DNA of 64,000 nucleotides. Origin: Branchiostoma floridae. Lineage: Eukaryota > Chordata > Leptocardii > Amphioxiformes > Branchiostomatidae. The translations under genes were made by a program, and so were the position numbers. The notes beneath the pieces are model-generated. The model saw only the letters and a program-made list of their open reading frames with translations. It ran no database searches and was not told the DNA's origin. Location of the stretch: positions 21,127,698 through 21,191,697 of the forward strand of contig NC_049988.1 in NCBI RefSeq assembly GCF_000003815.2, in the 5' to 3' direction. Positions 1-56,244 of the stretch are shown here, one piece after another (position 1 is the stretch's first letter; the number at the start of each line of letters is the position of its first letter).

Positions 1-663
1 AAACTGTGACAGTAAGAAGAAGTTAAACCTACCAGCGAATATACACCCCTGATAAACCTGTATGAAACTGAGACAGTAAGAAGTTAAACCTACCAGCGAA
101 TACACAGCCCTGATAAACCTGTATAAAACTGTGACAGTAGAAAGAAGTTAAACCTACCAGCGAATATACAGTCCTGATAAACCTGTATAAAACTAAGACA
201 GTAAGAAGTTAAACCTACCAGCGAATACACAGCCCTGATAAACCTGTATAAAACTGTGACAGTAGAAAGAAGTTAAACCTACCAGCGAATACACAGCCCT
301 GATAAACCTGTATAAAACTGAGACAGTAGAAAGAATTAAAACCTACCAGCGAATACACAGCCCTGATAAACCTGTATAAAACTGTGACAGTAGAAAGAAG
401 TTAAACCTACCAGCGAATATACAGTCCTGATAAACCTGTATGAAACTGAGACAGTAAGAAGTTAAACCTACCAGCGAATACACAGCCCTGATAAACCTGT
501 ATAAAACTGTGACAGTAGAAAGAAGTTAAACCTACCAGCGAATACACATCCCTGATAAACCTGTATAAAACTGTGACAGTAGAAAGAAGTTAAACCTACC
601 AGCGAATACACAGCCCTGATAAACCTGTATAAAACTGAGACAGTAGAAAGAATTAAAACCTAC
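1..663 (-). repeat. Donor-edge minisatellite of cdk5 exon 7
   Basis: Ten extra copies of a 57-66 bp unit follow the real exon end at 664. On the minus strand each unit carries the exon tail TGTATATTCGCTG and the donor GTAGGTTTAAC, then intron sequence. Copies vary in the exon part (TATATT or TGTATT) and in short indels. The array runs off the left edge of the window. Confidence 0.9.
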
Positions 664-4415
<3,752 letters not shown>

Positions 4416-4738
4416 ATTGGAAGATGTCACTGCAAAACACACCTGGCCCGGCTAATGACGTCATGGGACTAGCTGCGATCGACTTTTTGTAGTGCCTGCT
4501 TTTTCTTTCCAAATTGCTGGCAAATTATTTCCATTTTTTAGATATATACATTGAAAGATTCTTTTAAAAGTAAAAACGTTATTATAGAGACTTAAAAAAT
4601 ATTTTTATTGAATTTTTAGGAAGATAATGTCCTACATATTACCAAAAACTTTTAGGCAGTAAAATCATCACAGCCGCCAGCTCCTTTGTTCGTCCGTCCC
4701 AGACGCGGTGAAAGATTTCCGATTTGGTGTTGCAGAGA
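4416..4738. promoter_or_regulatory. Bidirectional promoter region cdk5 / SMARCD
   Basis: 323 bp separate the two divergent start codons. No TATA box sits in a convincing position. A palindromic CRE (TGACGTCA) lies at 4456-4463, and the middle is A/T-rich. Transcription starts cannot be placed from sequence alone. Confidence 0.6.
4456..4463. promoter_or_regulatory. CRE/ATF palindrome TGACGTCA
   Basis: A perfect 8-bp CREB/ATF consensus 41 bp upstream of the cdk5 start codon on the minus strand. Binding is inferred from the consensus only. Confidence 0.5.
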
Positions 4739-7700
4739 ATGCAACAAGCGGGCATGCAGCGGGCTTTTCCCGGTTCTGGATACCCTGTAAGTCTCACAGA
4801 ACAGTAACTCAGCTCTTACTGCAGCTCAAGAAAGGGTGGAGGGGGCAGGAATTCATAAAAGTTGTTGTTTTTGTTGATCTGGAAGTCGGCATCACAACAA
4901 CGCATTGTTGTTTGTCGCCCCCCTCCCCACCGGCGACGTTTGCGATTCTTAAATTATGATAATTTGTGCCCCATAAGTTATGTAGCCGCACAGAAAGGTT
5001 AGGAAGGGGCCGGGGGAATCTTCCTAAGGTTGGTTCCGTCTCTGTGGGTTTGATTTTGTGGGAAATAAACCTCCAAATTTGTGTGATTTGTCCAGTAAGG
5101 TACTGGGCATGCGTGGTTGGGGAGGGAACCCTGATATGTAGGGAAGATTTGAATAGTTCCTGTCTGAGCCAAGCTCGAAATTGGCGCATCTGTTTAGTCT
5201 TAGCCATGATATTTTTGAGGGATTTTGTGGCATCACATGGCATGAAATATTATGGTGGCGTGTTAGACCCAGAACCCAGAGGCCCTGGGTTTGAATCCCC
5301 TGACAAGGCCAGACATAATAATTTGTCCCTTTTGGAAAGGCACTTAACAGGGGTTTCCTCACTCCACTCAGGTGAAAGGTTCCGGTCGGCACGTCCCGAT
5401 AGGATATTACATTACATGGTGGTCTCACAGGAATCAAGCAGAATTGCTTCAGAAGATGTTGTTTGTGTGTTGACATGTTTGTTTGTTTGTTTGCTTTTAG
5501 CAAGGAGGTTAAAGAATTCTTTAACCTCCTTGCTTTTAGCATGCAACAGGGTTGTAGCCAGCCAGAAATCATTTTCCGTCCCCTTGATTTTGAATCGCAG
5601 TGTTCCTAGGGGGGTCCGGGGGCATGCTCCCAAGGAAAATTTGGAAATCTAGACCCTTGAATACACTATTTTCTGCATTTTGAGGGTGGAATTTTGCTCA
5701 CAGAGGACGAAATGGGCAATTTTTTGTTCCGTCCAGAGTTTTGCAAAATTCCATCAAAGGACGGAAGGACGGGTGCTGGCTACAACCCTGCCCTGGCATG
5801 TAGCGGATGTTGTTTGTGTGTTGACATGTTTGTTTGTTTGTTTGCAGCACCCTGGCATGCAGCAGATGCCCCAGCGGATGTTGTTTGTGTGTTGACATGT
5901 TTGTGTGTTGACATGTCTGTTTGTTGACATGTTTGTGTGTTGACATGTCTGTTTGTTGACATGTTTGTTTGTTTGTTCCCAGCACCCCGGCATGCAGCAG
6001 ATGCCCCAGCGGTTGTTGTTTGTGTGTTGACATGTCTGTTTGTTGACATGTTTGTTTGTTTGTTCTCAGCACCCCGGCATGCAGCAGATGCCCCAGCGGA
6101 TGTTGTTTGTTTGTTGACATGTTTGTTTGTTTGTTCTCAGCACCCCGGCATGCAGCAGATGCCCCAGCGGATGTTGTTTGTTTGTTGACATGTTTGTTTG
6201 TTTGTTCTCAGCACCCCGGCATGCAGCAGATGCCCCAGCGGATGCACCCGTACGGCGGCCAGATGCGTCCCGTGGCGGGCGGGGAGTCATCGCGCTCTAA
6301 GAGGCAGGCCGATTCTCGCTCTAAGCAGCAGCAAGCGCAGCAGCAGTCTCAGCGAGGGTGAGGCACCGGACACCCGATACCCAACCTTGCGAAACCCGAC
6401 ACCGTAACCTCCCGACACCCGATACTGTAACCTTAATGTGAACTGGGCTGAGTCACACACGTCACACTAGCTTTCACGTATTCACACGTTTGACACTCTC
6501 CTATGCATTGATATCCAATGGCAAAACTACCTGTCTGGATGTACCCTGCTTTCTCAACTGTCACTCTTAGTTACTGTGGGTGTCACCACAAACCAGCTGT
6601 CAACCAATTAGAGAATAGGCCTTTCAGTTTTCAAAAAGGGTCTCGCATATATAAGGGTAAGTTCATAAATATTCATAAGCAGGGCGTTCAGGAACTAAGG
6701 GTGACGGTTGAGAAAGCAGGGTACATCCAGACAGGCGGTTTCGCCATTGGATGTCCCTGTGTAGGAGGATGATGTTTGGCTTTTAATTTTACATCGTTGA
6801 AGAAGGAACGGTAGCATTGAACAGTCTCCAAGCAGAGGTTTGGTGGGGGAATTGTGACCTTCCCTTGTGACTTTCCCTGCTGTCTGAACGCAGCGTCTGA
6901 GGAGGAGGCAATGATTTCCCTTCCTAACATCTGCTTGGAGGAGAAGCAACAATTGTTGTCATCACGCTGGTGTCTCCGTTAGCATTTCATAGGTCCAGTG
7001 TACTTGGTGTCTTTGTGCTTTGTCAGTAGTCTCCAAGCAGATCCTACAATGGCATAAGATAGTACCAAACTGGCCAAGGAGTGTAGTCAGCCAAGAGGTG
7101 TCCATTTGCCTTGTAGAGGTGTCAGTTTCCCCGATAGCGAAACACACTCCTATGCCGGTATCACTCCTCTGCCAGCTTTTGATACTACGAGTATCTTATG
7201 ATACCATAGGATCTGCTTGGAGATTACTTTGTCAGCAAGGATTCTATCCGAAACGTCTGACCGTTTCCAAAACCATATCCAGTTGCTTGAGTAACTACTT
7301 TTTGGCGTACTTTGTCAGCGTGTTTTTGAATAATCTTCTAATGCCTTGAGCTGCTGACCGTGTCAGCAAACTTGTCAGTAAGTGCCTAAAGCTCAAAGAG
7401 CGTAAGTCAAACACAGAGACACTGAGTACATCACGACTCACTGATATGCAGATAGGGACACCAACATGGCCGCCGCCCCAGCCGACGTGCCGTGACTCTG
7501 CTCTCCCCGCCCGCCCATGTGAGCCTCACACCGTGCCCTAACCCAACGCGCCGTGCGTCTGCTTGTCTTGGTCTCACGGGTCTGCACAGACAGGGTCCCA
7601 CATTAGACTAACAAGTAAAATAGGTCATACTGACTTATCATGTAGAAATAGCACAAGAAAAGTCCCCACAACGGCCACAAGGAGGACAGCACAATACTTC

Positions 7701-10700
7701 CATGTAATAATGATTGAGGTTATGATTCATTGCATCTCCCTGCAACACACTCACTTGTTTCCAACATAGGGCCTACACAACCCCATGTTTATTTTCTAAG
7801 TTTTCCCTTCACAAAGAAAAAACCTAGCCTGGGTAACCTGTTGTGATCTTGAACCAGTTTAGCTCATTGGATAGCTATTCTTTCACTGGTCATGACGGAG
7901 AACCCAGACGCTGTGTACAGTATTTACAGATTGATTGTACAGGGAAAGTTCTGCTAGGTCTTTTCAACAAGAACAGTGAACTGTGGACCACGGCTTAAAG
8001 TCCCGTCGACATCTGCAACCCCATCCAGTAGCGTCCATGTCTGGTGATAAACACAGTCGGGATTCAAACTCTGGCTTCTTGGTGCCATTAACTATGAAAA
8101 CATCACCTGCTTCGGCCATTAGAAGAGACACAAACCCAGACGCTGTGTACAATATTTACAGATTGATTGTACAGGGAAAGTTCTGCTAGGTCTTTTCAAC
8201 AAGCACAGTGAACAATGGACCTCGGCTTAACGTCCTGTCTGCAACCCTTTCCAGTAGCGTGCATGTCATGTGACTTCTTGGTCCAAAGGCAGGGACGTTA
8301 ATCATGAAAACATCACCTTCCAGCCATTAGAAGAGACACTTACCCAGACCTGTGAGTCGAGACACAGCGACGTCCCAAACATTTTCCCTGTCCTGGTCAT
8401 TCATTCACAAAAGGTCATGCACTTTAACCCTGATTGGCGACCTATGTTTTAGGCCCTATTCCATTGCATAGGTGTCCGTGTCCAACCTGACCTGCTGCCT
8501 GCTTGCTTCTCACCAGTCTGCATTTCATGCTTTACTGCAGTTAGTCGTCCTTTGTTGTGTAAAATGATGCCTGTTGTCTTCACACACCAGGTGAGATAAA
8601 ATAACATTGTTATTGACGCAGATCCAGAAAAAAATTGACGGTAATGTTGTGACGTAATTTAAGATTCGTCTTGATATGTTTTACAGAGTTTTAGTCCATG
8701 AATGTAGTTTATGATAACAAAAATGTGAATTTGTTTACTATAATTATAGTGTATTCAAGATTTAGTATTTCTTACTCATGAAGAAGTGTTCTGGACTTCT
8801 GTAATTTTATGTTTGGTGTTGTGTTTTGGAGTTGTTTATGAGTGCCCAATGATGATTGTGGAGTAAGACAACTATAAGATCTGTACAGTTTGTTCCATAG
8901 TTGAGTTTGTGATTTGTGCTCCACAGGAAGAAGAAGAAGGTTGCAGACCGGATCCTTCCCCAGAGGGTGGGACACTTCTCTTATCTGTTGTCTTTCAGTT
9001 TTATGTGTTAAGTAAGCTTCATACAGCACTGATACTGATAGGAGATTTATTGGACTCCTGGCTCAATGCTGGTGACACAATGACAGAATTTTTCATAGAA
9101 ATCATAAAAAATGGAAAGGTAGAGGTTGAAAAAAAAGGAAAAAATGTCATTCATGTCTACAATTTCCCTTTTTCCTCTAGGATTCTGACCTTGTGCCCAA
9201 ATCTTGACCTTTGATCCTTGTCCCCAGGGTTATAATCTTATGACCTTTGTACCTCGGTCTTTGACCTTGTCCCTGTGTATATGGTCAGTCAGATCAGTCT
9301 CAGGAGGTACCTCTGTGGATGAAGTGAAAGAGTGTATCAATGACCTTTGTCCCATGGGTTCATGACCTTCTGACATTTGCCCCATTGGTTCATGACCTTA
9401 TGACCTTTGCCCCAGGTGCGTGACCTTGTGCCGGAGTCGCAGGCGTACATGGACCTGCTGGCGTTCGAGCGTAAGCTGGACTCCACCATCATGAGGAAGA
9501 GACTGGACATACAGGAGGCGCTCAAGAGACCCATGAAGGTCAGCAAGTCCTTCTAAATTAAAAACGCATTTATTCCAGGGCTTTAGCCAGCTCGAAATTT
9601 TTTTCCTTCAGCCAATTACAATCGTCGCGAAAACCGTGAAAATTAATTAGAAGGACTGAACTGAGACCTTGAAAAACGGGTTATAATGAGATTATCGTAT
9701 GCGAAAGGGCGCCGACACACATTGTCAACAATCATAACAATAGCAAAACAAACAGTGTGTGGCTTTTACGGCCGTGGACGGCGTCCCCAAGCCGCCTGTA
9801 GCTTCCACCAAGGATTTTTGTCCGTCAAGGTTCACGGATTGGTTTTAAAATTTTTCCGTCACATGCAGCAAATTTCCGTCAATTGGGGGAAAAACGGACG
9901 CTGGCTAGACCCCTGTTCCAATGTCTGAGAAATGGGAGACTTGCTGAGTGCTTCCTTGTGTAGCGTGGCAACACTCTGACTTCGACATATTCCGCCCATT
10001 TTGTCTTGCAGCAAAAGCGGAAGCTGCGCGTTTTCCTGTCCAACACCTTCTACCCTGCCAAGCCCGATGCAGAGGGGGTGAGTACAAACTCTCTGACATT
10101 ACCTTAGAGCTTTAGATAAAAGAAGGTCTATCAATTCATTTTCATTCATTTATTTGTTTTACCAGAGTTACATCGCTCAGACTTCAGCCTGTTTTTCAGG
10201 ACTCCCTGGACACATATAGAAACAGACAACATACAATACTTGGGAACAGACAGTCACATAACTCAGGAATAAGATAACAGTTAAAGTCCTGCCAACAGTA
10301 TTACCGCATCCGTCCATTTTGATGTAACATAAGAGCTTTACATCAACACTTTTATTTTCACTTTCTAATCTTAAACTGGAACTTATGATAAACACCTTAA
10401 TTTTCAATGTCTGACTTAACATTGAGCTTTAGATAAAAGCTTTTGCTCCAGTTTTTATGCCTTGTACAGACAAGCAGAAGTTTATCAAAATCATCTTGTA
10501 CATGTGTCGTGTCCGTTTGCTGTGTGACCTTACTCAAGGTCGTTTGTTATGTATCTTCAGCAGGAGGACGATGGGAATGTTGCATCCTGGGAGCTGAGGG
10601 TAGAGGGCAGACTCCTGGACGACGTAAGTGAACGAGCCTCGTCTGTAATGCGATCTCTCGCTGTCCCGTGCTGTACACAGCCCATTCCTGCCCTCCTCAC

Positions 10701-19149: not shown

Positions 19150-19438
19150 AGGTCCCATGGGGTAACTGTAGACAAATGAACGAGCATTCTGGTTGGCTAA
19201 GAGCCAGACATTACAAATTTGTTATATTGGGCAGACTATACGGGGATAAATTCAATCAAAACTGGATAATAGATCACGTTAGTATCACTGTCATATACAG
19301 ACTGTCTCTGGGGTTCCGTACATTACCGTCCTGTACGCTGATTAGCTAAGAGCCGGCCGTACCTCCTGTTCTGCACGCTTATTGGCTGAGAGCCGGCCAC
19401 ACCAAATTTGTTAGAAAGTGACGTTCAATCGAACAAAA
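19150..19438 (+). promoter_or_regulatory. Myo1D upstream region with repeated CCAAT-like modules
   Basis: A module resembling ATTGGCTGAGAGCCGGCC occurs three times (about 19190, 19340 and 19378) with diverged spacers. Two modules are followed by ACAAATTTGTTA or CCAAATTTGTTAG. Each has an inverted or near-inverted CCAAT (ATTGG, TTGG, ATTAG). The start codon context AAAAATGGCGG is favourable. Promoter function is inferred from position and repetition. Confidence 0.45.
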
Positions 19439-34400: not shown

Positions 34401-37400
34401 TTAACTTGGATTATGTTTTATGTCTTGTGGTAAGTCTTGTATGGAGCTTCCAGTCTTAGATTTTGTGTCTTGCCGACAAGTCTTACATACAGTATCCTGT
34501 CTTGGACTCTGTGTCTTGCCAACAAGTCTTAGATAGAGCATCTTGTCGTAGAGCATCTTGTCTTAGATTTTGCTGAATTAATTTTTAATCTTGCTGCCAG
34601 ATCGACTACTTCAACAACAAGATCATCTGTGACCTTGTGGAGCAGCAGCACAAGGGCATCATCGCCATCCTGGACGAGGCTTGTCTGAGTGTGGGGAACA
34701 TCACCGACAAGGTAAACAAACAAACAAACAAACAAACAGGTGTGTCTGAGCATTGAGAACATCACTGACAAGGTAAACAAACAAACAAACAAACAGGTGT
34801 GTCTGAGCATTGAGAACATCACTGACAAGGTAAACAAACAAACAAACAAACAGGTGTGTCTGAGCATTGAGAACATCACTGACAAGGTAAACAAACAAAC
34901 AAACAGGTGTGTCTGAGCATGGGGAACATCACGGACAAGGTAAACAAACAAACAAACAAACAAACAGGTGTGTCTGAGTGTGGGGAACATCACCGACAAG
35001 GTAAACAAACAAACAAACAGGTGTGTCTGAGCATTGAGAACATCACTGACAAGGTAAACAAACAAACAAACAGGTGTGTCTGAGCATGGGGAACATCACG
35101 GACAAGGTAAACAAACAAACAAACAGGTGTGTCTGAGTGTGGGGAACATCACCGACAAGGTAAACAAACAAACAAACAAACAGGTGTGTCTGAGCATTGA
35201 GAACATCACTGACAAGGTAAACAAACAAACAAACAGGTGTGTCTGAGCATGGGGAACATCACGGACAAGGTAAACAAACAAACAAACAGGTGTGTCTGAG
35301 CATTGAGAACATCACTGACAAGGTAAACAAACAAACAAACAAACAGGTGTGTCTGAGTGTGGGGAACATCACTGACAAGGTAAACAAACAAACAAACAGG
35401 TGTGTCTGAGCATGGGGAACATCACGGACAAGGTAAACAAACAAACAAACAAACAGGTGTGTCTGAGTGTGGGGAACATCACCGACAAGGTAAACAAACA
35501 AACAAACAAACCAACAGGTGTGTCTGAGCCTTGAGAACATCACTGACCAGGTAAACAAACAAACAAACAAACAGGTGTGTCTGAGCATGGGGAACATCAC
35601 GGACAAGGTAAACAAACAAACAAACAAACAGGTGTGTCTGAGTGTGGGGAACATCACCGACAAGGTAAACAAACAAACAAACAGGTGTGTCTGAGCATTG
35701 AGAACATCACTGACAAGGTAAACAAACAAACAAACAGGTGTGTCTGAGCATTGAGAACATCACTGACAAGGTAAACAAACAAACAAACAGGCATGTCTGA
35801 GTGTGGGGAACATCACCGACAAGGTAAACAAACAAACAAACAAACAAACAGGCGTGTCTGAGTGTGGGGAACATCACCGACAAGGTAAACAAACAAACAT
35901 CTCCGTGTGAGGAACATCACTGATAAGGTACAACTTCATTTTCAACATGTCTTAAACTCCTATCTCAGTTATCCGAGTGATGATTCCCCTCTTCATGTAC
36001 AAGATTTTAAACTTCATATTATCAGTAATAATTTGTGTTATTCTTTTGTGACAAAGTACCTTTACTCAGACTCCATTAAAAATCATAGTCAGGTGTAACG
36101 AGTCGTTTGGTGTAATATAACCAGCTGCTGTCGCACCGCGTGCCTGCGAAGCTGGTGTGTTACACCGAACGGCGGTTATACCTGCTATATAGATACAGAT
36201 ACAGAAGCTGGTGTGTTACACCGAACGGCGGTTATACCTGCTATATAGATACAGATACAGATACAGAAAAATGATACATTCAACGTACTTTAATTTCTGT
36301 TGCAGATGTTTTTACAAGCCATGAACCAGAAGCTGAGTAACCACGACCACTACACCAGCAGACAGGTCAGTGTGCATCAATACATACATCTTAAAGATCA
36401 AACGTAGGATTAAGACATCTGGGGAATATCTAAGTGTCTGAAAAAAAGTTATAATCTGGTCATTAACAATCAGACAGAAAAGTGCAGACTTGAAGAAAAG
36501 TCCCTTTTGAAACGGCAGTAAAGACTGTTGAAGTAATGGCAGTGACTTAGATGAGCTTTAATGTGGATACAAGTTGGCTAATGATGTATGTATATAAGAG
36601 TGCAGTTCTGTTCATCTCATGTGACCTTTATATTGCAGCTGGTTCCCACAGACAAGACCCTGGAGCACAGCCGGGATTTCAGGATCAGGCACTACGCTGG
36701 CTCTGTCACGTGAGTTACTCTGTCTGTAGTGTTTCATACAATCATGTATAATAGGCATCAGTACTACGACTTTATTTTATAGTCGTAGTACTGTCTTATG
36801 TTCTCCTGTAGGTATTCATGTATAATACACTGATGGCAAAAAATGCTTTGAGTTGCTTTGAGAAGTGATGACTGCTACCATGTTAAAGTTAAAAAGTTAA
36901 ACCCTTCCCGCGCCTGATGACGCATAGGGCGGCGCCCATCTCTGTTTCCTTAGCCCTGGGCCACACAACGCAATCACTACAGCAGGGTGCTAGTCCACTG
37001 GTAGTGGTGTGTGTTTAACTTCCATACTCTTTCCCAAATGCTGAGTGCTAAGCAGAGAAAGCAGCATGTACCATTTTTAAAGTCTTTGGTATGACTCGGC
37101 CGGGGATTGAACTCATGACCTTCCGAATGCAAGGCGAACACTACCCACTAGGCCATTGCACCGGTCTACCATGTATATGACGTTTAATGTAAGAATATTT
37201 TGCTGTGTGAAATAATCTCTCCAATGTGTATGTGTGTCTTTTCTTGTAGTTATTCTGTGGAAGGCTTCATAGACAAGAACAAGGATGACCTGTTCCAGGA
37301 CTTCAAAAGGCTCCTGTACAACAGGTGAGGCATGCATTATTATTGTTCCTACCTCAGGTGAGCTGTGTTGTTGTTGTTGTTTCTCTCGTGTAAACTTAAC

Positions 37401-38266
37401 TCCCATTACTGGATGTCCCTGTAGCTCAACTCGTACCAGCCTCACAGTTGAGCTCCTGGTTCCAGTTAGTTGGTAACTGGGGACCCAGGTTCAAGTCTGG
37501 GTAGGGCATCTCGATTAGGGCTGCACCCATCTTTCGGAAGAGACAAGAAATGGGGTCCTGCAGCGAGCAAAATACCCACTTGCATACTTGCACAATGCAA
37601 CCACTTTTTGCTTGGTGCAACTTACTTCTAAACTCAGGTTGCACAGGATGCAACTTAGATTTTGAGCCTCAGAACTCATTGTTGTCAATTTACTTGGAAG
37701 AAATAAATGGACCGAGGCAGCTCCGTTTCATATTAGCCAAGCATGTATGTATAGTACCCCTTTTTCAGAAATTATTGAATTGTAGGTGGTGCAACTTGAA
37801 ATTCAGTTGTGCAACCTAGTTTTTGCCCCAGGTTGCACAGTGTGCAACCTGGCTCAGAAAAGTATTTTGTACACTGTCCTGTGTTCGAGGAGGTGCCTTG
37901 AGCATGTTAAAGGGGGAAGGGCTGGCTAGCAACTCTTGATAAACCCTACTACAAAAACAGCCAAGAAACTTTCTGCCCTCTGGATCCATCAGACACCTGT
38001 TGACAGTACCATTTCTCCCATTCCTCCCCCAGCTCTGACCCTGTCATCAGCTCCATGTGGCCTGAGGGGAAGCGGGGCATCACAGAGGTCGGTGGAACAC
38101 TTCTACTTTTATTGATTGTATTGAATAGGTATTGATTAAATTGATCGATCAATCAATAGGGTTGAATATAATGTAATTGTTGCCTAGAAATTATAATTAT
38201 TCTTTGCTGTGTTGTTGACTGTTGGTTTTGTGTGCCCAGGTAACCATAGGCCCCTGGCTGCCTGCA

Positions 38267-38305
<39 letters not shown>

Positions 38306-41300
38306 CTGTCTGTATGTGTGTGTGTGTATGTGATCATGACTAATGATACCTATATTACCCAGGTGACCAAGAGACCCCTGACTGCCTGCACCCTGTTTAA
38401 GAACTCCATGATCCAGCTGGTCTCTAACCTGGCTTCTAAGGTAGGAAACATTTCCGTGAGGCATAGACTAAATAGGGAATGTGTATGTGTGTAAGATGTT
38501 TGTTTTCGAGGTCAATGAATTAATGGTCCTCGTGTATTTTCATTTAGTCTTCAGTTGGTAAGATGTTCATTTCCTGTTAAGTTTTGACTGAATTCTCCCA
38601 CCCTGTTTCCTCTCCCCTGCAACCCCTAATGTTGTTGTGATGATATTTGGTATATGAATACAACTTGGGAAGACAAAGATCGAGGTCCATTATAAGCCTC
38701 CTAGCGACTGACCTTGGTACTGCAGCAGAACATCCAGTTCTTGTCCGGAATGTGTGTTGGTAGATAGCTCTTGATGTCAGGAAGAAGTGGAAGGACCCTC
38801 TAGTTTATAGCAGTTTTCACTCCCCTTCCCCGTGTCCAGGTTCCGTACTACATGACAGACAGCACAGCCAAACTTTTAAGCTGTAGTGGCATTGGCTTGT
38901 TATCCACTGTATTTAGGTACAGTTTTGGAAGGTGGAGCCCATCCATCTCCTTCCACTGCCTTGCACCTTCCCAATCAAAGCCAGCTACACATTTTTACAC
39001 CTCCAGGGTAGATGGAGCAAAAAAGTGTCAACTGTCTGTTTTGTCCAGGTCCCGTACTACGTGAGGTGCATCAAGCCCAATGAGCAGAAGTCGCCGGTGC
39101 TGTTTGACGACCAGCGCTGTCAGCACCAGGTCGAGTACCTGGGGCTCCTGGAGAACGTCCGTGTGAGACGGGCAGGCTACTGCAACCGGCAGCACTACAG
39201 CAGGTTCCTACAGAGGTCAGTAACTTAGGTGTGAGGCCAGCACAACATAGGTGTGAGACCAGCACTACAGCAGGTTCCTACAGAGGTCAGTAACGTTGGT
39301 GTGAGACCAGCACTACAGCAGAATTCTACAGAGGTCAGTAACGTAGGTGTGAGACTAGCACTACAGCAGGTTCTTACAGAGGTCAGTAGTAACGTAGGTG
39401 TGAGACCAGCACCCAGCAGGTTCTTTCAGAGGTCAGCAAATATGTCAAAGCAGCCTGTCATTACGCCCCACGATCATAGAAAAAACTGTTGCCAATAATT
39501 GTGTATTCTGCCCATCTCTTGAAAGAAGCCTCAGGTTCCCTTGTCTTCCCTCTCAAATCTGAGTGTACTTTTGCGTTATCCATTGACTGGAGTCAGTTCT
39601 GCCTGTAGCAGTTCCCAGCTGTGACTATCGAGCATGTACTATGACTATATGACTGGGCACATTCATCACATAGGGGCAGGAACTTACTGGCACTGGAGGC
39701 ACCTTAACATTGTAGATCAATATGCTGTAGAACTAATTAAAAGTAGAGAATCAGTGTTGGAGAGCTGAGAGAAGTCTGTTGTTACTGTCTCAGGTACAAG
39801 ATGATTTCTCGGTACACGTGGCCAAAACACCACATGGCGCCAGACAGTTCAATTTATGTTTGTGACCTCAACACTAATGTAGGTTATCAGATCTTGGAGA
39901 CAATTTCAGAGTTAGTATGTTGGTTACCAACCTGAAGTTTATTTTTGTTTTCCTGTAGGTACAAGATGATTTCTCAGTACACGTGGCCGAACCACCGCAT
40001 GGCGTCAGACATGGCAGCCGCCTCTACACTATTGTTAATACTCTTTGTTGTTGCTTTACCAGGTACAAGATGATTTCGCAGTACACATGGCCGAACCACC
40101 GCATAGCAACCCCTCTACACTATTGTAACTATAGAACTATATTAGGGAAGTATGTAGTGAAAAGTTTAAACTTTGTTCCAACACAAGGGAAGAAACTCAC
40201 CATAAATTTTCGGCCGAATACTCCGACCTTCATCAGATGAATGATTCGCTGCACTAATCCGGAAGTCGTCGGATGACGTCAGGTAGCAGCGAATCATAAA
40301 TGGCGGGAAGGCAAAACCTGCCACCATCACGGTTCAATGAGGGTTGGGGTTTCATTCGGATAGGGAAGTATGTATTTAAGAGTAATGCTCTTTGTTGTTA
40401 TTTTCCCGTAGGTACAAGATGATTTTTCAGTACACATAGCCAAACCACCGCATGGCAGCCACCTCTACACTATTTATATTTCAGCCATACCATAGGTATG
40501 GTGAAATATATTGTATTCGTAATGTTTCTTTCTTTCTCCTGTCAAATCTTCAAATCGATTCAACTCCGTCGTTCCTGGACCGAATTACTTGAAATTTGGC
40601 ACAAGGGTAGAGTGGGTCAATACCCAGGTGCTTTTTTCTAATTTTTTTCATATCTTCCTTTAAAATGATTTTATTCATGTTTTTTGCAATTTTTATGTAC
40701 ATTTTGCCCCCCTGTTCCCTGGTGTTACAGCCGAATGACCTAAAATTTGGTACAGAGGTGCCTTGATCATATGCCCACAAAATTCCAAAAACAATTTTGG
40801 CATACGGTACATCAAAATGCTTAATTTTGGCATTTTTTGCCATTTTTTTCCCCAGAAATGACATTTTTTGCTCCTATACCCCCATTTTACAACCAAATGA
40901 CCTGAAATTTGGTATAGGAGTGCCGTCTACAAATGCAAACATGAATTCATTGACACTTTTGGCATACGGTACAACAAAATGCTTAATTTTGGAATTTTTT
41001 GGCCATTGTTTGACCAAAAACGTACGCTTTTGGCTCCTGTTCCCTGGTCTTGTAACCAAATGACCTACATTTTGGTAAATAGGTGCACTAGATATTCATT
41101 CAAATGACCCATGTATAATTTTTGGCATAAACCACTTCAAAATGATATAGTTGGGTACTTTAGTAATTCTCCACTGGCCAGAGGGTCAACGACCTCTCCC
41201 ACCTGAAGACAGCATGTGCACATGTCTATATATACTAGTAACTTGATTAAAGAGGTAACCAATCACGTAGCCTGAGTCAACATCCCGAAGGGGATTGGCA

Positions 41301-44300
41301 GCCAATCAGTGAGCCCGGTGTTATCTGGATGAGTCCATTCTGGCATGGAGGGGGTACATATTTTTTAAATTCATCTTTGGACTGTTGATTATATAATGTC
41401 TCTCAGTGGGAGTATTTTTGAACTGGACTATTTTGCAATTTTACATGGGGTGTACTGGAAGAGTCCATTCTTGCATGGAGGGGGGCATTTTTTTTTAAAT
41501 TTGTTTATGGACTTTGGTGATTTGATATGTCAAAGTGTTTCAGTGTGGGTTTTTTTTGACTGGTCAACTTTGCAATTTTACATAGGTTGTGCTTACATGG
41601 GGGGATTTTTAAAATCCATTTTTGGGACTTTGGTGATTACGTCCAAGTCCAATTTTAGCGGATGTATTTTTGGACTGCACCACTTTACATAGGGGCATCG
41701 CAAAAAGAGTCCATTCTTGCATGGGGATGTTTTCAAATTTAGTTTTAGAAAGGTGATAATTCAATATTCCATTTTTAGTGGAAGTGTTTTTGGACTGGTC
41801 TATTTTACATTTTCATGCCTTTTTTGCTTAGTTCAACCTTGACCATGTTTTCAGTGAGAGTATTTCTGGACTGGTCTATTGTGCAAATTCACATGGGGTG
41901 CACTGGAAGAGTCCATTCTTGCACTAGGAATTTTGTAAGATTCATTTTTGGGTGTCATTAAGTGTCATTAGTGGAAGTGACTTTTAAACAAAAGTGTTCG
42001 ATTCTTGCACATGGGTGATTTTGGAATAGTCTGTTGTTGCATGGGGAGGGAGATGGCTGAAATATGCTGCATTTGCTCTCAAGCAAATGTCGGCCTTTCT
42101 AGTGTGGAACTATATTGGAGAACTAAGTCTTAGAGAAGTAAGATTCTCTGTGTTGTTGCTTTCCCGTAGGTACAAGATGATTTCACAGTACACGTGGCCA
42201 AACCACCGCATGGCGTCAGACATAGCGGCCACCTCTACACTATTGTAACTATAGAACTATATTAGAGAAGTGTTGAAGAGAACTAAAATGCTCTTTGTTG
42301 TTATTTTCCTGTAGGTACAAGATGATTTCACAGTACACGTGGCCAAACCACCGCATGGCGTCAGACATAGCGGCCACCTCTACACTATTGTAACTATAGA
42401 ACTATATTAGGGAAGTATGTATTTAAGAGTAATGCTCTTTGTTGTTATTTTCCTGTAGGTACAAGATGATTTCGCAGTACACGTGGCCAAACCACCGCAT
42501 GGCGTCAGACATAGCGGCCACCTCTACACTATTGTAACTATAGAACTATATTAGGGAAGTATGTATTTTTAAAGAGTAATGCTCTTTGTTGTTATTTTCC
42601 TGTAGGTACAAGATGATTTCCCAGTACACGTGGCCGAACCACCGCATGGCGTCAGACATGGCGGCAGTACAGCTGTTAGTACAGGAACGGGGGTTCAAAC
42701 ACGACGTGGCGTACGGGAAAACGAAAATCTTCATCCGGACTCCGCAGACACTGTACCAACTGGAGGAGAGCCGCGCTAAACTCATCCCCGGGATCGTGCT
42801 GTTTATACAGAAGGTTTGTTTGTTTGTTTGTTTGTTTGTTTATCCCTGGGATTGTCTTGTTAATACAGAAGGTGGGTTTGTTTGTTTATTGTCCTCTTCA
42901 TACAGAAGGTTTGTGTGTTTGTTTGTTCATCCCTGGGATCGTGCTGTTTATACAGAAGGTGGGGTTGTTAGTTTGTTTGTTTGTTTATCCCCTGGATCAT
43001 ACTCTTTATACAGAAAGTGTATTCTTTTGTTTGTCTGTTCATAGAATTTGTTTGTACTCCAGAAAACTTGTATGAATTCCATTGAATGTATATGAATACT
43101 AACTTAGGCTTCCCTAATATCTTTATGATTGTTTGAATTAACTTTTGTTGTTTGACAGAGAAATGAAAGATGTGATGTCGGAAATCCCCCTATTATCTAC
43201 CAGGAGTTTACATAGAAGGTCTCACAATGATGAGAGTTAAGATGTCTCCCATGATTCCCCAGATGTGGCGTGGCGGGCTGGCCCGGATGCGGGCACGGAG
43301 GATGCGAGCGATCTACGCCATCATGGGGCGTTACCGCGTCTACAAGATGCGCAGCTTCCTGGTGGACCTGCTGGACAGGTTCTACAACGTGCGCAACATG
43401 GCGGACTACGGGCGAAGCGTGGCGTGGCCGCAGCCGCCCGCCGTGCTCGAGGAGTTTGTCACCCAGCTCAGGAAGGCTCACAACGGGTGGGTACCAAATA
43501 TGGGCAGGTTAGCAACGGGTGGGTACCTAATATGGGCTGGTTAGCAACTGATGGGTACCTAATATGGGCAGGTTAGCAACAGGTGGGTACATAATATGGG
43601 CAGGTTAGCAACAGGTGGGTACCTAATATGGGCAGGTTAGCAACGGGTGGGTACCTAATATGGGCAGGTTAGCAACGGGTGGGTACCTAATATGGGCAGG
43701 TTAGCAACAGGTGGGTACCAAATATGGGCAGGTTAGCAACAGGTGGGTACCTAATATGGGCAGGTTAGCAAGGGGTGGGTACCAAATATGGACTGGTTAG
43801 CAATGGATGGGTACCAAATATGGGCAGGTTAGCAACAGGTGGGTACCTAATATGGGCAGGTTAGCAACAGGTGGGTACCTATATGGACTGGTTAGCAATG
43901 GATGGGTACCAAATATGGGCAGGTTAGCAAGAGGTGGGTACCTAATATGGGCTGGTTAGCGATGAGTGGCCGCAGCCCCCCGCCGTGCTTGAGGAGTTCG
44001 TCACGCAGCTCAGGAAGGCTCACAACGGGTGGGTACCTAATATGGGCAGGTTAGCAACGGGTGGGTACCTAATATGGGCTGGTTAGCAACTGATGGGTAC
44101 CTAATATGGACAGGTTAGCAATGGGTGGGTGCCAAATATGGGCTGGTTAGCAACAGGTGGGTACCTAATATGGGCAGGTTAGCAACGGGTGGGTACCTAA
44201 TATGGGCTGGTTAGCAACTGATGGGTACCAAATATGGACTGGTTAGCAATGGGTGGGTACCAAATATGGACTGGTTATGGTTAACTAGCTAAGAAACTAG

Positions 44301-46321
44301 TTGATAACAGCCTAAGTATCTCAAGACATTTCTCCATCTTTCCACCAGCTGGTGGGCGCGCCACATCATCGCTCAGATCCCGGAGCGCGACAGGAAGGAG
44401 GTCAGGCTGAAGTCCATCGCGTACGGTCATCTCCATGGTAACCGCAAGGACTGGGGACTCAACCAGCGCTGGAGGGGGAACTACCTCGGACTGGTGAGGA
44501 CTGTTTGTTTGTTTGTTTGTTTGTTTGTGTACGGACATCTCCATGGTAACCGCAAGGACTGGGGGCTGATGTTTCAGTACAAGCCGCATAATCAGATGGA
44601 TTTTGATCCTCTCACACAGGGAAAGACCAGTACTCTTGTACTCTTGATAAGTGTGGTGGGTTTCTTGTGTGGTGCTGGAGGTGTGGCTCTCCTAAAAAAA
44701 ATTATGATTGACAGCTGTCATGTTTTACAGAGCGAAGACATCCAGAAGGCCAAGCTGTTCAACAACTCGCTGAACTCACTTGTGGCCCAAGACAGGTTCA
44801 AAGAAGTGCTGTTCTCTGCTCACGTCAAGAAGGTCAGTTTCTCAAGAACTTCTGCACAGTTACATTGTAACGTCCATCTGTATCTATATAGCCGGTATAT
44901 CCGCCCTTTGGCATAATACACCTGTCCAGCTTCGCAGCGCGGCAGCAGCTGTTTATGTTGCACTGAATGACGCGACACACCTAACTTCCATGGCCTGCTA
45001 AAGATTCAAACCCCAAACCTCTAGGTTCTACATTGTAAGTCAACAACCCTGAAACCACACCACCACCTTCTGGCTGTGCTTGTCCTCAAAGATTCCCTTT
45101 TGAGGATTTGATCCACTCACATCGGGAAGAATTGCTACTCTTTTCTATAAGACTGGTTGGTAAATAAATATTTCTTTCACGTGCTCGAGGTGCGGCTGTC
45201 CTCTGGCTTCACATCAAATCTGAGAGGCCATACCTACCCAAAGCTAGGTGCTCCTTTCCCACTGAGTCGAATGAGGAAATAGCTGTAAAGTGTCTTTCAG
45301 AATGGTACAACATCAGAGCACGGCATGCTTGGGCCTCGAACCCAGAACCTTTTGTTTCTAAGTCAACATCCCTAACCACACTAACAGCTCTACTGTTTCC
45401 CCTCCCCTGTCCAGGTGAACCACCACAATAAGAGCTCGGACCGGGCAGTTCTCGTGACGGACAAGTTCCTCTACAAACTGGACCCCAAGAAGGGCTACAA
45501 GGCCATGAAGCAGGGAACACCTCTGGCACAGGTGGGTGGGAAACAGTGTGTACAGGTGTGTGTGTGTGTGAGAAGCAGGGAACGCCACTCGCACAGGTGG
45601 GTGTGTCTGTGTGTGTGAAGAGTGGTCATTTTTGTTACTACTTATTCTAGTGAAAAGCTCTCATTAGAAAAAAATGAACGAATAAGATGGCTTGCTTTCC
45701 CTAATACATGTACCTAGAAACTGTCAATGAATTATCTTGCCAAATTTAGTGCCAGTATTATACATGTATTTGATTGTCATTCTTTTTTAATTGCACTTTG
45801 TATTCAAATTTTGCATTTGACCTTTGCACCCAACCTTTGAACCTGACCTTTGTATCCAAATTTTGCATGACCTTTGAACCTGACCTTTGTATCCAAATTT
45901 TGCATATGACCTTTGTATCCAAACTTTTCATGACCTTTTAACCTAACCTTTGTATCCAAATCTTGCGTATGACCTTTGAACCTGACCTTTGTATCCGAAT
46001 TTTGCATATGACCTTTGCACCCAACCTTTGAATCTGACCTTTGTAACAAAACTTTTCATGACCTTTGAACCTGACCTTTGTATCCAAATCTTGCGTATGA
46101 CCTTTGAACCTGACCTTTGTATCCAAATTTTGCATATGACCTTTGAACCTGACCAGATGACGGGTGTGAGCGTGACCCCGGGTCAGGACCAGCTGATCGC
46201 GGTGCACCTGGCAGGGGGCAACGACCTGGTTCTGTGTGTGACGGCCATCATGCCTCGCCAGGACCAGCGGGTACCAGAGCTACTGGCCGTGCTGTGTGAC
46301 GCCTATAAAAGGTACGACTAG
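19439..46321 (+). CDS. MYO1D: Unconventional class I myosin, Myo1D/Myo1G type, complete
   Basis: Short-tailed actin motor that works at membranes; Drosophila Myo31DF and vertebrate Myo1D control left-right chirality. Exons: 19439-19536, 27768-27976, 29711-29804, 30249-30414, 31452-31505, 31888-31977, 32462-32800, 33393-33535, 34024-34138, 34601-34711, 36306-36365, 36639-36709, 37250-37324, 38033-38087, 38363-38440, 39049-39215, 42606-42813, 43263-43486, 44349-44493, 44731-44832, 45415-45531, 46157-46321. They sum to 2886 bp in frame, 961 aa plus stop. P-loop GESGAGKT near residue 103, switch [17 protein letters not shown], switch [10 protein letters not shown], actin-binding [10 protein letters not shown], neck WRGGLARMR at 712 with IQ-like repeats, TH1 tail from about 800. 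It ends YKRYD about 45 residues before the human Myo1D end; an unseen extra exon (AAAAG|GTACGA) is possible. Nearly every intron has an exon-edge array. Confidence 0.95.
19537..20829 (+). other. Start of Myo1D intron 1, no gene seen
   Basis: A/T-rich with a G-run at about 20300-20316 and no recognisable exon or complete mobile element. Confidence 0.4.
20830..21060 (+). repeat. Four-copy minisatellite in Myo1D intron 1
   Basis: Units of about 58-61 bp with core GGTGCAGGTGCAGGGTGTCC and CCATGGTTACA or CAGGTGGTTACA. No exon is adjacent, so this one is not an exon-edge array. Confidence 0.75.
22214..24145. mobile_element. TIR element interrupted by a CR1-like LINE
   Basis: Inverted ends AAAGGGCATTCCACTCC (left) and GGAGTGGAATGCCCCTTT (right) are flanked by copies of AAACAAACTT. 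A second, element-free copy of the same host segment lies at 24476-24560 and reads GGTAAACAAACTTTCATC, confirming insertion. The target duplication is between 5 and 12 bp because of A/T ambiguity. Inside, a minus-strand 5'-truncated LINE (about 22418-23835) forms most of the length. Confidence 0.8.
22715..23851 (-). pseudogene. CR1/jockey-type non-LTR reverse transcriptase, 5'-truncated
   Basis: An open frame of 378 codons covers the C-terminal two thirds of a non-LTR reverse transcriptase. Motifs in order: [20 protein letters not shown] (RT domain), [14 protein letters not shown], the catalytic YVDD box, a conserved SRKCKAMHI segment and the C-terminal thumb region with [14 protein letters not shown]. 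It ends naturally at 22715. No endonuclease domain or start context lies upstream on the minus strand, so the copy is 5'-truncated near 23835, typical of target-primed insertion. The 3' side carries three copies of a TTTTGAAATC-like tail at about 22418-22450, as in CR1-group tails. The frame has no stops, so the insertion is fairly recent. The amphioxus CR1-like element BfCR1 is a candidate relative, from memory only. Confidence 0.85.
24180..24462. mobile_element. CAGGGTTGGACAAGT MITE (copy 1)
   Basis: Starts CAGGGTTGGACAAGTCCACT and ends AGTCCAACCCTG. Shares ends and GGGCAAGTGCATGTCCTACC with the copy at 26885-27214. Flanks show only partial duplication. Confidence 0.75.
24476..24560 (+). 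repeat. Duplicated host segment, empty of insertions
   Basis: TTTGTACACATTGGAAACTCC to TCATTAGAGCC repeats the flanks of the two preceding insertions (22170-22213 and 24146-24179) as one unbroken piece. It is the pre-insertion state of a tandem duplicate. Confidence 0.75.
24600..25930 (+). other. Myo1D intron 1 continued, no gene seen
   Basis: Contains (TTTG)n near 24880 and a C-run near 25199, otherwise unique-looking A/T-rich sequence without a convincing exon. Confidence 0.4.
25933..26119. mobile_element. MITE with CTCCAAGCAGAAGTTAG ends (copy 4)
   Basis: CTCCAAGCAGAAGTTAG and CTAACCTCTGCTTGGAG face each other around about 150 bp. Termini match the other three members; the interior is different. 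Confidence 0.7.
26455..27767 (+). repeat. Acceptor-edge array of Myo1D exon 2
   Basis: About eight degenerate copies of a unit of about 110-145 bp: TTTTAGGTTCCAGAA acceptor, exon start ([20 protein letters not shown]), then GTTATCATAAACTATAACTC. Copies begin near 26460, 26571, 26709, 26857, 27327, 27492 and 27636; the real exon starts at 27768. Several copies have non-synonymous changes. One is split by a MITE. Confidence 0.88.
26885..27214. mobile_element. CAGGGTTGAACAAGT MITE (copy 2) inside an exon copy
   Basis: Splits a duplicated Myo1D exon-2 copy between CTACAC-GTATG and GTATG-TGGGGG, so GTATG is a 5-bp target duplication. Ends CAGGGTTGAACAAGT and CAAGTCCACTAGCCC-type inverse. A 5-bp duplication fits the hAT5-type group, from general knowledge. 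Confidence 0.8.
27977..28070 (+). repeat. Donor-edge duplication of Myo1D exon 2
   Basis: The last 51-52 bp of the exon ([18 protein letters not shown] coding) recur unchanged ending at 28066, followed by GTTTGTTTG in place of the first donor GTTCGTTTG. Confidence 0.88.
28200..28600 (+). other. Myo1D intron 2 between arrays
   Basis: Contains an early diverged relative of the next array (GAAGAAGGTAAAACTGAACCCC near 28452) and CTCACTCA-type simple sequence. No exon seen. Confidence 0.45.
28620..29710 (+). repeat. P-loop acceptor-edge array of Myo1D exon 3
   Basis: Twenty-two occurrences of a 50-bp unit, from 28662 to the functional one at 29711. Each carries TGTACAG, then GGTGAGAGTGGAGCAGGTAAAACTGA, the codons of GESGAGKTE. 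Copy changes include GAG to GAC, GCA to GTA and GGT to GAT or AGT, many non-synonymous. Only the last copy continues into [13 protein letters not shown]. Confidence 0.95.
29960..30140. repeat. SINE-like fragment in Myo1D intron 3
   Basis: Contains TTCAACAAGTGTGGTGG and AACTTCCCATCCGAGAGGACG segments in the style of the SINE bodies elsewhere in the window. The family is not certain. Confidence 0.35.
30415..30556 (+). repeat. Donor-edge array of Myo1D exon 4
   Basis: Three extra copies of AACATCAACAACTATCTGTTA(G/C)A(G/A)AAGGTGAG (INNYLLEK coding plus donor), spaced about 40-60 bp. Confidence 0.85.
31056..31233. mobile_element. Tc1/mariner-type palindromic MITE, TA duplication
   Basis: Ends CAGTCAAACCTGTCTATAG and TAATACAGGTTTGACTG, flanked by TA on both sides (31054-31055 and 31234-31235). 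The interior repeats GTGGCCACTATGGACAGGTGG twice. Non-coding, in Myo1D intron 4. Confidence 0.8.
31545..31795 (+). mobile_element. SINE, tRNA-derived, diverged head
   Basis: Body CTTCCCTCACTCCACCCAGGTG followed by TGGGGAGGTAAAGG and CCGTGCCCTAGACACAGTGG. The head keeps a weak B-box-like GAGAGTTCACATCC. Shares the CTCACTCCACYCAGGTG block with 5235-5405. Confidence 0.6.
31978..32096 (+). repeat. Donor-edge array of Myo1D exon 6
   Basis: Two extra copies of the YTYTCPQSQ-coding exon end. One is long and includes CACCTGTCCAGGTCCCCCCA (LSRSP), ending CCTCAGACACAG|GTGGGT near 32092. Confidence 0.85.
32280..32380 (+). repeat. Decayed copy of the start of Myo1D exon 7
   Basis: GGCCCCCTCCCCATCAGTGA, then GGCAGTCCAAACAGCCATTAAATCTG and GGCTTCACCAAGGAGGAATACAGCAA match the exon at 32462 with frame-breaking changes. 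Upstream of the real acceptor. Confidence 0.8.
33058..33342 (+). mobile_element. tRNA-derived SINE, well preserved
   Basis: A-box-like TAGCCCAGTTGTTAG and B-box GAGTTTGATCCCGG are spaced as in a tRNA promoter. The body has GACGGGACGTTAAGCCGTGG and GTAAATACTGTACATAGCGTCTG. Minus-strand relatives are at 7840-8340. Confidence 0.8.
33597..33685 (-). repeat. Interspersed repeat, inverted copy 2
   Basis: TAGACATCCAGGTAATAAGA to GGAAACGGTCAGACGTT is the reverse complement of the block at 62520-62610 and 7235-7320, diverged in the middle. Confidence 0.6.
34712..35935 (+). repeat. Donor-edge array of Myo1D exon 10, about 22 extra copies
   Basis: The unit is 51-61 bp: (CAAA)n CAG, a 33-bp exon tail (CLSxxNITDK coding), then GTAAAC. 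The AAACAAAC tract length varies. Three exon-tail types alternate: AGTGTGGGG, AGCATTGAG and AGCATGGGG, giving SVGN, SIEN and SMGN. The 33-bp piece is a multiple of three and in phase 0 with the preceding exon. Confidence 0.95.
36119..36265 (+). mobile_element. SINE 3' fragment with (GATACA)n tail, duplicated
   Basis: CAGCTGCTGTCGCAC to CTGCTATATAGATACAGATACAG matches the 3' end of the minus-strand SINE at 44868-45062. The segment GAAGCTGGTGTGTTACACC to GATACAG is present twice in tandem. Confidence 0.7.
36975..37170 (-). mobile_element. tRNA-derived SINE
   Basis: On the minus strand: A-box-like TGGCCTAGTGGGTAG and B-box GAGTTCAATCCCCGG, followed by GAGTCATACCAAAGACTTTAAA. Relatives are at 55030-55270 and 55375-55510. 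Confidence 0.8.
37415..37920 (+). mobile_element. tRNA-derived SINE split by a hAT-type MITE
   Basis: Head TGTAGCTCAACTCGTACCAG and B-box CCCAGGTTCAAGTCTGGG. The body resumes after the insertion with GTTCGAGGAGGTGCCTTGAGC, which resembles the 5S-SINE body (CTCGAGGAGGTGCCTCGACC at about 3954). Confidence 0.75.
37561..37876. mobile_element. hAT-type MITE with TCCTG target duplication
   Basis: Ends CAGCGAGCAAAATAC and GTATTTTGTACACTG; TCCTG flanks both sides (37556-37560 and 37877-37881). The interior is rich in TTGCAC and GTGCAA inverted words. Inserted into a SINE body. Confidence 0.75.
38225..38258 (+). repeat. Decayed acceptor-edge copy of Myo1D exon 15
   Basis: GTGCCCAGGTAACCATAGGCCCCTGGCTGCCTGC matches the start of the exon at 38363 (GTGACCAAGAGACCCCTGACTGCCTGC). 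A (TG)n run follows at 38271-38303. Confidence 0.75.
38832..38856 (+). repeat. Decayed acceptor-edge copy of Myo1D exon 16
   Basis: GTGTCCAGGTTCCGTACTACATGA resembles TTGTCCAGGTCCCGTACTACGTGA at the functional border (39049). It stops in frame at once. Confidence 0.7.
39216..39432 (+). repeat. Donor-edge array of Myo1D exon 16
   Basis: Four extra copies of about 51-57 bp carry ACCAGCACTACAGCAGGTTC(C/T)TACAGAG and donor GTCAGTAA, then GTAGGTGTGAG. Changes are mixed synonymous and non-synonymous. Confidence 0.88.
39793..40478 (+). repeat. Acceptor-edge array of Myo1D exon 17, first block
   Basis: Four copies of the exon start ([17 protein letters not shown] coding) near 39794, 39959, 40063 and 40411, separated by diverged intron. 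The copy at 40411 has a stop (TGG to TAG). The array continues at 42160 after a 1.6-kb insertion. Confidence 0.88.
40490..42150 (-). mobile_element. Composite interspersed repeat splitting the exon-17 array
   Basis: 40490-41130 is the reverse complement of the family at 60860-61545 (shared end TTTCAGCCATAC to GAAATATATTGTATTCGTAATG; then GTTCCTGGACCGAAT). It contains three internal repeats of about 130-150 bp with AATGACCTGAAATTTGGTA. From 41330 a second set repeats GAGTCCATTCTTGCATGG and TTTTTGGACTGG about six times. No protein domain recognised. Confidence 0.7.
42160..42605 (+). repeat. Acceptor-edge array of Myo1D exon 17, second block
   Basis: Three nearly identical copies of about 144 bp (starting near 42170, 42315 and 42459) with acceptor TTTTCCTGTAG and exon start, all carrying ATAGCG where the functional exon has ATGGCG. 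The functional exon starts at 42606. Confidence 0.9.
42814..43025 (+). repeat. Donor-edge array of Myo1D exon 17
   Basis: Four extra copies of the exon tail ([10 protein letters not shown] coding) with GTTTG or GTGGG donors in TTTG-rich intron. Most copy differences are silent (for example ATTGTCCTCTTCATACAG), with one F-to-L copy and one diverged copy. Confidence 0.85.
43487..44280 (+). repeat. Donor-edge array of Myo1D exon 18
   Basis: About 25 units of about 32 bp (GGTGGGTACCTAATATGGGC, then AGGTTAGCAAC). In the middle, 43967-44028, lies a 62-bp copy of the exon end ([21 protein letters not shown] coding) with four silent differences and none that change a residue, again followed by GTGGGTACC. 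Confidence 0.9.
44494..44568 (+). repeat. Copy of Myo1D exon 19 segment in the next intron
   Basis: After a (TTTG)n run, 44530-44568 repeats the [13 protein letters not shown] coding segment with three silent differences (GGT/GGA, GGA/GGG, CTC/CTG). Confidence 0.85.
44868..45062 (-). mobile_element. tRNA-derived SINE
   Basis: On the minus strand: head GGTGGTGTGGTTTCAGGG, B-box-like GGGGTTTGAATC, body CAGCTGCTGCCGCGCTGCG, 3' end CCGGCTATATAGATACAG. Related to 36119-36265. Confidence 0.75.
45200..45400 (-). mobile_element. tRNA-derived SINE
   Basis: On the minus strand: GTTAGTGTGGTTAGGGATG, B-box GGTTCTGGGTTCGAGGCC, then the body to about 45200. It ends just before the exon 21 acceptor. Confidence 0.65.
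45532..45612 (+). repeat. Donor-edge duplication of Myo1D exon 21
   Basis: 45573-45596 repeats the last eight codons (KQGTPLAQ) with three silent differences (ACA/ACG, CCT/CCA, CTG/CTC), followed again by GTGGGTG. Confidence 0.85.
45815..46156 (+). repeat. Acceptor-side minisatellite of Myo1D exon 22
   Basis: Seven to eight units of about 40-55 bp with CCTGACCTTTGTATCCAAAT and TTTTGCATATGACCTTTG. The final CCTGACCAG forms the acceptor at 46156. Confidence 0.85.
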
Positions 46322-51300: not shown

Positions 51301-51480
51301 ACCAAGCACCAACGATCGGAGGCCCGCACATGCGCGCCGTTTCACCCCCATGAAAACACCCGCCATGCGCGGAAAAACTCTCTGATCAACGCTACTCAGT
51401 GATCGCACACTAACAGTGCACCAAACACCAAGCACAAACGATCAGAGACCCGCACATGCGCGCCGTTTCACCAGCTGAAA
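48360..51480. repeat. Satellite array, units of about 121-132 bp
   Basis: About 25 units with CAACGCTACTCAGTGATCGC, ACACTAACAGTGCAACAAAC, CCGCACATGCGCGCCGTTTC and CCGCCATGTGCGG. Unit lengths of 122, 126 and 132 bp were measured; the 132-bp form has a CTATGGCTATG insertion. Higher-order alternation is visible near 50260-51130. Older, more diverged units lie at the left. Confidence 0.92.
49670..49769. other. Assembly gap (100 N)
   Basis: A fixed-length run of N inside the satellite array, so the unit count here is unknown. Confidence 1.

Positions 51481-53750: not shown

Positions 53751-56244
<2,494 letters not shown>

Follow-up and report, generated by a model that had tools for sequence, protein, structure and literature searches.

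Copied exon edges in the introns of four neighboring genes

Introns of the amphioxus DNA analyzed here hold tandem arrays whose units include the last or first bases of the neighboring exon, which raises the question of why minisatellite-like sequence should keep to exon borders. The window, meaning the whole stretch of 64,000 nucleotides from Branchiostoma floridae (C10:21127698-21191697; genome of 513 Mb in 431 contigs), was chosen for its striking look. It contains SMARCD (14 exons), Myo1D (22 exons), and cdk5 (7 exons, minus strand, incomplete in the window), and Pfam matches confirmed the families (SWIB, Myosin_head with Myosin_TH1, and Pkinase). Exon borders were set by splicing, with GT-AG joins and no stop codon inside the resulting frames (that of Myo1D being read from exon 2 onward), and Myo1D exon 1 (19439-19535) was placed by tblastn. 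These three genes gave a test set of 81 splice edges (41 donors and 40 acceptors) and 41 introns of 38,982 bp together. An edge was counted as copied when a 50-base core over it aligned with a score of at least 44 to the adjacent intron, the search space being adjacent introns only, and the reversed core served as control.

By this measure, 16 of the 81 edges have copies in the adjacent intron, compared with 0 of 81 for the reversed cores, confirming that the exon edges of cdk5, SMARCD, and Myo1D are really copied, as an earlier note on this DNA had claimed; PECR, on the minus strand, adds one further donor array, giving 17 arrays in four neighboring genes (Table 1). Lowering the score to 36 or 30 raises the count to 17 or 18 edges. 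The same note had listed at least 20 arrays, about 13 donor-side and about 10 acceptor-side; the arrays stand, while these counts are too high at a score of 44, where 11 of 41 donors and 5 of 40 acceptors have copies. Weaker acceptor copies do occur, and those of Myo1D exons 7 and 15 were seen by eye only. Units are mostly spaced by 32-165 bp, so that the lower bound of the proposed unit size of 32-145 bp holds and the upper one has to be extended, and each edge has from 1 to 21 extra copies (a single one at 3 of the 16 edges).

Table 1. Arrays and copied exon edges, with positions counted from the first letter of the window.
Feature	Position	Strand	Description
cdk5 exon 7 donor array	1..679	-	unit 64/61 bp, 10 extra copies within the window, touches its left end
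cdk5 exon 6 acceptor array	1272..1554	-	unit ~77 bp, 3 extra copies
SMARCD exon 2 acceptor array	5802..6244	+	unit 71-135 bp, 4 extra copies
SMARCD exon 9 donor array	12704..13968	+	units of 165 bp with 105 bp of in-frame exon; 5 full and 4 partial ones including the exon; variants all silent
SMARCD exon 10 donor array	14213..14610	+	unit 62 bp; 7 units including the exon (6 by strict pattern)
Myo1D exon 2 acceptor array	26465..27848	+	unit ~133-148 bp, 6 extra acceptor copies
Myo1D exon 2 donor duplicate	27923..28089	+	unit 90 bp, one extra copy
Myo1D exon 3 acceptor array	28634..29735	+	unit 50 bp, 21 extra copies
Myo1D exon 4 donor array	30389..30556	+	unit 40-57 bp, 3 extra copies
Myo1D exon 6 donor copies	31925..32095	+	TRF 31948-32016, plus a copy whose edge lies near 32093
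Myo1D exon 10 donor array	34682..35899	+	unit 53-61 bp, 21 extra copies, with a higher-order period of 110 bp
Myo1D exon 16 acceptor, weak copy	38833..38855	+	score 36, under the threshold
Myo1D exon 16 donor array	39190..39436	+	unit 48-70 bp, 4 extra copies
Myo1D exon 17 acceptor array	39790..42665	+	unit ~145 bp, 7 extra copies spread across 2.8 kb, some separated by other sequence
Myo1D exon 17 donor array	42782..43020	+	unit 37-58 bp, 4 extra copies
Myo1D exon 18 donor array	43481..44277	+	unit 32 bp, ~20 extra copies
Myo1D exon 21 donor duplicate	45507..45605	+	spacing 65 bp, one extra copy
PECR exon donor array	54570..54844	-	unit 114 bp; exon, one clear and one degenerate copy
Array ending at cdk5 exon 7 acceptor	759..897		without copied exon sequence
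Array ending at SMARCD exon 4 acceptor	9340..9414		TGACCTTTG-based repeats from 9180
Array ending 2 bp before Myo1D exon 22	45796..46154		edge not copied; TGACCTTTG-based repeats

The TGACCTTTG repeats at 45796-46154 and 9180-9414 resemble what we take to be a nuclear-receptor half site. Three further features were seen in the window: a 5S rRNA-like sequence in cdk5 intron 1 (3778-3897, plus strand; Rfam RF00001, 54.4 bits), perhaps a 5S-derived SINE or pseudogene; an open frame of 384 residues in Myo1D intron 1 (22715-23869, minus strand) that looks by eye like a fragment of a non-LTR reverse transcriptase; and, between Myo1D and PECR, an array of 122-126 bp units with about 22 copies in two TRF stretches (48541-51470), which had no Rfam match at the gathering threshold.

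As the earlier note suspected from such a minisatellite at amphioxus Adh, the class is already known. A paper on the globin genes describes minisatellite-like copies of exon-intron boundaries in the neighboring intron at BflGb6, BflGb9, and Adh3 under the name of mirages; they occur at both boundaries, often keep the splice signals, vary in unit number, and leave splicing undisturbed, and they are considered possibly general in cephalochordates (PMC3087553). In the window, likewise, the unit spans the exon-intron boundary, copies lie in the adjacent intron at 5' and 3' boundaries, and AG and GT are mostly kept. As a positive control, four of nine listed globin loci, which may or may not include BflGb6 or BflGb9, showed no array over the matched exon and one 17-bp intronic array; this control carries no weight either way.

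The copies gather around exon edges beyond chance

Among the TRF arrays of the three gene spans with a period of at least 25, 12 of 24 cross an exon edge, with 2.4 expected (P = 3e-7), and several of the remaining 12 are parts of edge arrays. The claim that arrays respect exon edges more often than ordinary minisatellites should is thus borne out, more weakly in the 253 edges examined elsewhere (see below). A crude comparison per position had given no excess (16 of 81 edges and 744 of 3376 interior positions), because the interior positions included the mirages' own copies; once edge-derived arrays were removed, 245 of 5177 interior positions (4.7%) had copies, compared with 19.8% of the edges. 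When only first copies were counted, they occurred at 16 of 81 edges, at 8 of 78 positions 40 bp inside the exon, at 4 of 81 positions 60 bp into the intron, and at 30 of 1073 positions (2.8%) in distant intron (120-400 bp). First copies form a broad hump that reaches about 60 bp to either side of the edge, and the spacing of units in edge arrays is like that of ordinary interior arrays (P = 0.27). Given both observations, the data do not establish that the splice junction as such is targeted, as the earlier note had proposed.

We also considered whether these are ordinary minisatellites, favored by base composition and noticed more at edges since exon sequence decays slowly. The shared unit spacing would suit this explanation, and so would two of four base-composition comparisons that reach P = 0.03 outside the window; within the window, in contrast, none of four such comparisons separates edges with copies from edges without, and neither GC content nor splice-site strength accounts for the copied edges. 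Moreover, the excess is also found among near-identical copies: at a score of 76, the window has 11 of 81 edges and 27 of 1073 distant intron positions with copies (ratio 5.4), so that the excess does not come from slower exon decay alone. We regard this explanation as quite unlikely.

Nucleosome-sized units were rejected as a signature of the edge arrays, as six edge and six interior arrays fall at 130-170 bp and spacings up to 200 bp are alike. The exonic share of the unit in 23 hand-curated arrays averages 0.49 (sd 0.18; P = 0.008 by simulation against a uniform share, P = 0.086 by KS test). We set this junction-centered unit aside as evidence, because edge-only arrays were omitted from the set and selection should purge units with little intron.

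The edge effect extends beyond the window at lower density

An independent sample was drawn from 42 segments (211 kb), of which 40 gave exons; these 40 were taken for their myosin, dynein, or adaptin domains and not for repeats. From 140 typed family matches, 139 were usable and gave 253 edges, the exons being placed by family match and splice-site score instead of transcripts. Copies were found at 11 of the 253 edges (dynein 8 of 127, adaptin 2 of 21, myosin 1 of 105) and at no edge with the reversed control, which makes the density in the window about 4.5 times that of the sample. Four of 13 TRF events cross an edge, compared with 1.25 expected (P = 0.024), and first copies occur at 10 of 253 edges (4.0%) versus 28 of 2500 positions at 120-400 bp (1.1%; P = 0.002 by bootstrap over the 40 segments). 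Adding five omitted exon matches (of seven) gave 12 of 260 edges with copies and first copies at 11 of 259 versus 29 of 2535 (P = 0.0004). The edge effect is therefore not confined to the window.

The outside sample is also small, with 11 copied edges. At a score of 76, the ratio is 2.5 (4 of 253 and 16 of 2500) and comes from 4 edges only; for the dynein genes alone, the ratio per position is only 1.8 (8 of 126 and 247 of 7078) and TRF events give P = 0.065. Seven of the 11 outside edges have a single extra copy, and at 3 of the 11 the copy lies 380-726 bp away, so some of these cases may be exon duplicates or assembly errors instead of tandem units. Edge copies are scarce in the myosin loci (1 of 105 edges versus 10 of 148 in dynein and adaptin genes), where interior arrays are also rare (mostly C9 loci), unlike in the dynein genes.

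Many of the sampled myosin loci lie in tandem clusters, and we guess that they encode muscle myosins. In addition, a kinesin gene on C2 (segment L067, 1089-1503) has an acceptor-side mirage with a 151-bp unit and two extra copies of the exon start, and a dynein gene at C11:20521813-20522184 shows a similar triple match.

A second copy of the locus carries the same arrays with changed unit numbers

Used as a DNA query, the SMARCD exon 9-10 stretch revealed a second copy at C1:21354266-21355764 (87% identical). SMARCD-Myo1D sequence on C1 extends over 21353900-21356099 and 21368400-21371899, with non-coding sequence about 84-87% alike and an intron stretch near the copy 84% identical; in the three exons read on C1, 22 of 469 bases differ, with no residue change in the compared codons. 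The C1 copy is either a segmental duplicate or a deeply diverged or misplaced haplotype. Apart from its own locus and this copy, the query (which covers 2 of the 17 arrays) matched only a 36-bp piece on C4, in a search that skips very common words. Dispersed intron-making elements (introners) were rejected for the exon 9-10 stretch, as it is not scattered over many genes.

All four arrays that can be compared are present at both loci, and the number of units has changed in three of them: SMARCD exon 9 has 6 full units on C1 versus 5 on C10, SMARCD exon 10 about 4 (3.3 by TRF, 3 by strict pattern) versus 7 units, and the Myo1D exon 2 acceptor 3 versus 6 extra copies, the Myo1D exon 2 donor having one extra copy at each. 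Since they are shared by C10 and C1, the compared mirages are older than the split of the two copies, and they are unstable in length.

This comparison also bears on the concern that the arrays were produced in assembly, by placing two diverged haplotypes in tandem where their exons are conserved. Such joins could account for the edges with a single extra copy, in the window (3 of 16) and outside (7 of 11), and the existence of a second copy of the region on C1 is in keeping with them. They cannot, however, make arrays of 10-21 short units, and the same arrays recur on C1; published cases were backed by trace reads or re-sequencing. We consider an artefact highly improbable.

Most copies decay like dead sequence

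The copies mostly decay like dead sequence. Over 18 window edges (a set including one edge without a copy and the weak acceptor of Myo1D exon 16), the distinct exonic variants are 37 silent and 87 replacement, where 25% silent is expected (P = 0.15), and stop codons are present in some exonic copies. This neutral decay argues against selection that would keep the extra splice sites as spares or for regulated alternative splicing. Of 171 copies from the window and other loci, 163 retain their GT or AG (97 of 104 donor, 66 of 67 acceptor), as this idea would predict, and AG at acceptors is slightly more conserved than the positions near it (0.98 versus 0.67-0.93, nine arrays); the donor GT, on the other side, is kept no better than nearby exonic bases of the same copies. 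Furthermore, the donors of copied edges are slightly stronger and not weaker (18 versus 147 donors, P = 0.047 uncorrected). The data thus do not support selection for redundant splice sites, raised in the earlier note, and we consider it very unlikely.

SMARCD exon 9 is an exception

The array at SMARCD exon 9 behaves differently. Its 11 full units (5 on C10 and 6 on C1) are 105 bp of exon each, that is 35 codons running from phase 0 to phase 0, open in all 11 and flanked by AG and GT, and 10 of 10 variants are silent (P = 6e-7), 4 of the 10 being found in units of both loci. Six partial units, with 29-60 exonic bases, have 6 silent variants and 1 replacement. A gapped count in the window had given 11 silent and 3 replacement variants; the 3 replacements arose because partial units were over-extended by gaps, and an ungapped recount gave none.

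These properties would be expected if the units were genuine tandem exons, translated as 35-residue repeats: all full units are open, in phase, and flanked by splice dinucleotides, with no replacement. Against this, the unit acceptors score 1.3-2.1 and the weakest of the 40 true window acceptors 4.2 (on a score built from those 40), partial units that hold only the final 29-60 bases of the exon show almost as little replacement, and extra copies would interrupt the SWIB domain. Translation seems doubtful to us. Because the unit acceptors are weak and the partial units nearly as silent as the full ones, exchange or renewal fits better, and the pattern of variants suggests that the copies may still exchange sequence with the working exon or be renewed from it. 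Unequal exchange could move copies into and out of the functional position, and selection would thereby reach the non-coding copies at second hand, leaving almost only silent variation in complete and partial copies alike. That mirages form a local reservoir trading sequence with the working exon is a tentative proposal, to which we give somewhat less than even odds; that the exon 9 units are translated exons is less likely.

A possible origin in exon-anchored mis-repair

We read the arrays as amphioxus mirages that arose by local tandem duplications spanning the junction and were placed there by exon-anchored mis-repair, a reading to which we assign a probability of about 0.5. One breakpoint of the small tandem duplications is several-fold more common in exons than in introns, the unit spacing being otherwise ordinary. 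Amphioxus heterozygosity is high. In so heterozygous a genome, exons would match between homologues while intron alleles may be too different, and mis-repair, by template switching or unequal exchange, would start where the homologues still match. The founding tandem duplication would then span the exon-intron junction, selection would keep only duplications reaching from exon into intron, in which the original splice site and exon stay undamaged, and the array could later grow and shrink in the intron as a minisatellite. Mis-repair of this kind is the cause that we infer; the scarcity of edge copies in the myosin loci is not predicted by it.

That scarcity could fit the main competing explanation, in which germline transcription, through R-loops, stalled polymerase, or co-transcriptional breaks, makes junctions fragile and prone to duplication. 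The sampled myosin loci are poorer in arrays than cdk5, SMARCD, Myo1D, and the dynein and adaptin genes, which could fit a dependence on germline expression. Interior arrays, however, fall off in the same myosin loci, so the scarcity is not specific to edges, and we hold transcription-induced fragility to be rather unlikely. Exon-anchored mis-repair remains our preferred reading.

Relation to known repeats and meaning for amphioxus genes

The arrays of the window resemble the mirages of BflGb6, BflGb9, and Adh3 in being tandem boundary copies on both sides, with splice signals often kept; they differ in that here 17 arrays lie in four neighboring genes and the excess was measured (PMC3087553). 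Unit number is labile in those mirages, and here it differs in three of four arrays between C10 and C1, which may or may not be haplotypes. SMARCD exon 9 differs in suggesting exchange with the working exon, the cluster-boundary units of the globin mirages being reported as excluded from homogenization. The lancelet PGBD5 gene has tandem repeats of 60 and 108 bp over splice sites, and TnC is also named (PMC3902484); these units likewise cover 5' and 3' splice sites but, unlike those of the window, concern one gene and few copies. Amphioxus VCBP3 introns are stated to hold complete or partial exons, some with splice sites (data not shown in that paper; PMC2632668), and these pieces are, like ours, similar to the adjacent exon, the available description containing no tandem structure.

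In the literature searched, which covered few subscription papers, we found no genome-wide count of mirages. Gao and Lynch in 2009 reportedly described the creation of introns by internal gene duplication. There, as here, duplication takes in splice motifs inside genes; it makes new introns in their case, whereas in the window existing introns grow. As far as our searches show, the measured edge excess with its independent sample, the comparison of two loci, and the coding-constrained SMARCD array are new.

If the edge excess holds genome-wide, small tandem duplications in a chordate would have their breakpoints preferentially at exon borders, and this would bear on the growth of introns and on the origin of new introns or exons. 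The SMARCD locus, in turn, makes it testable whether intronic copies rewrite the adjoining exon.
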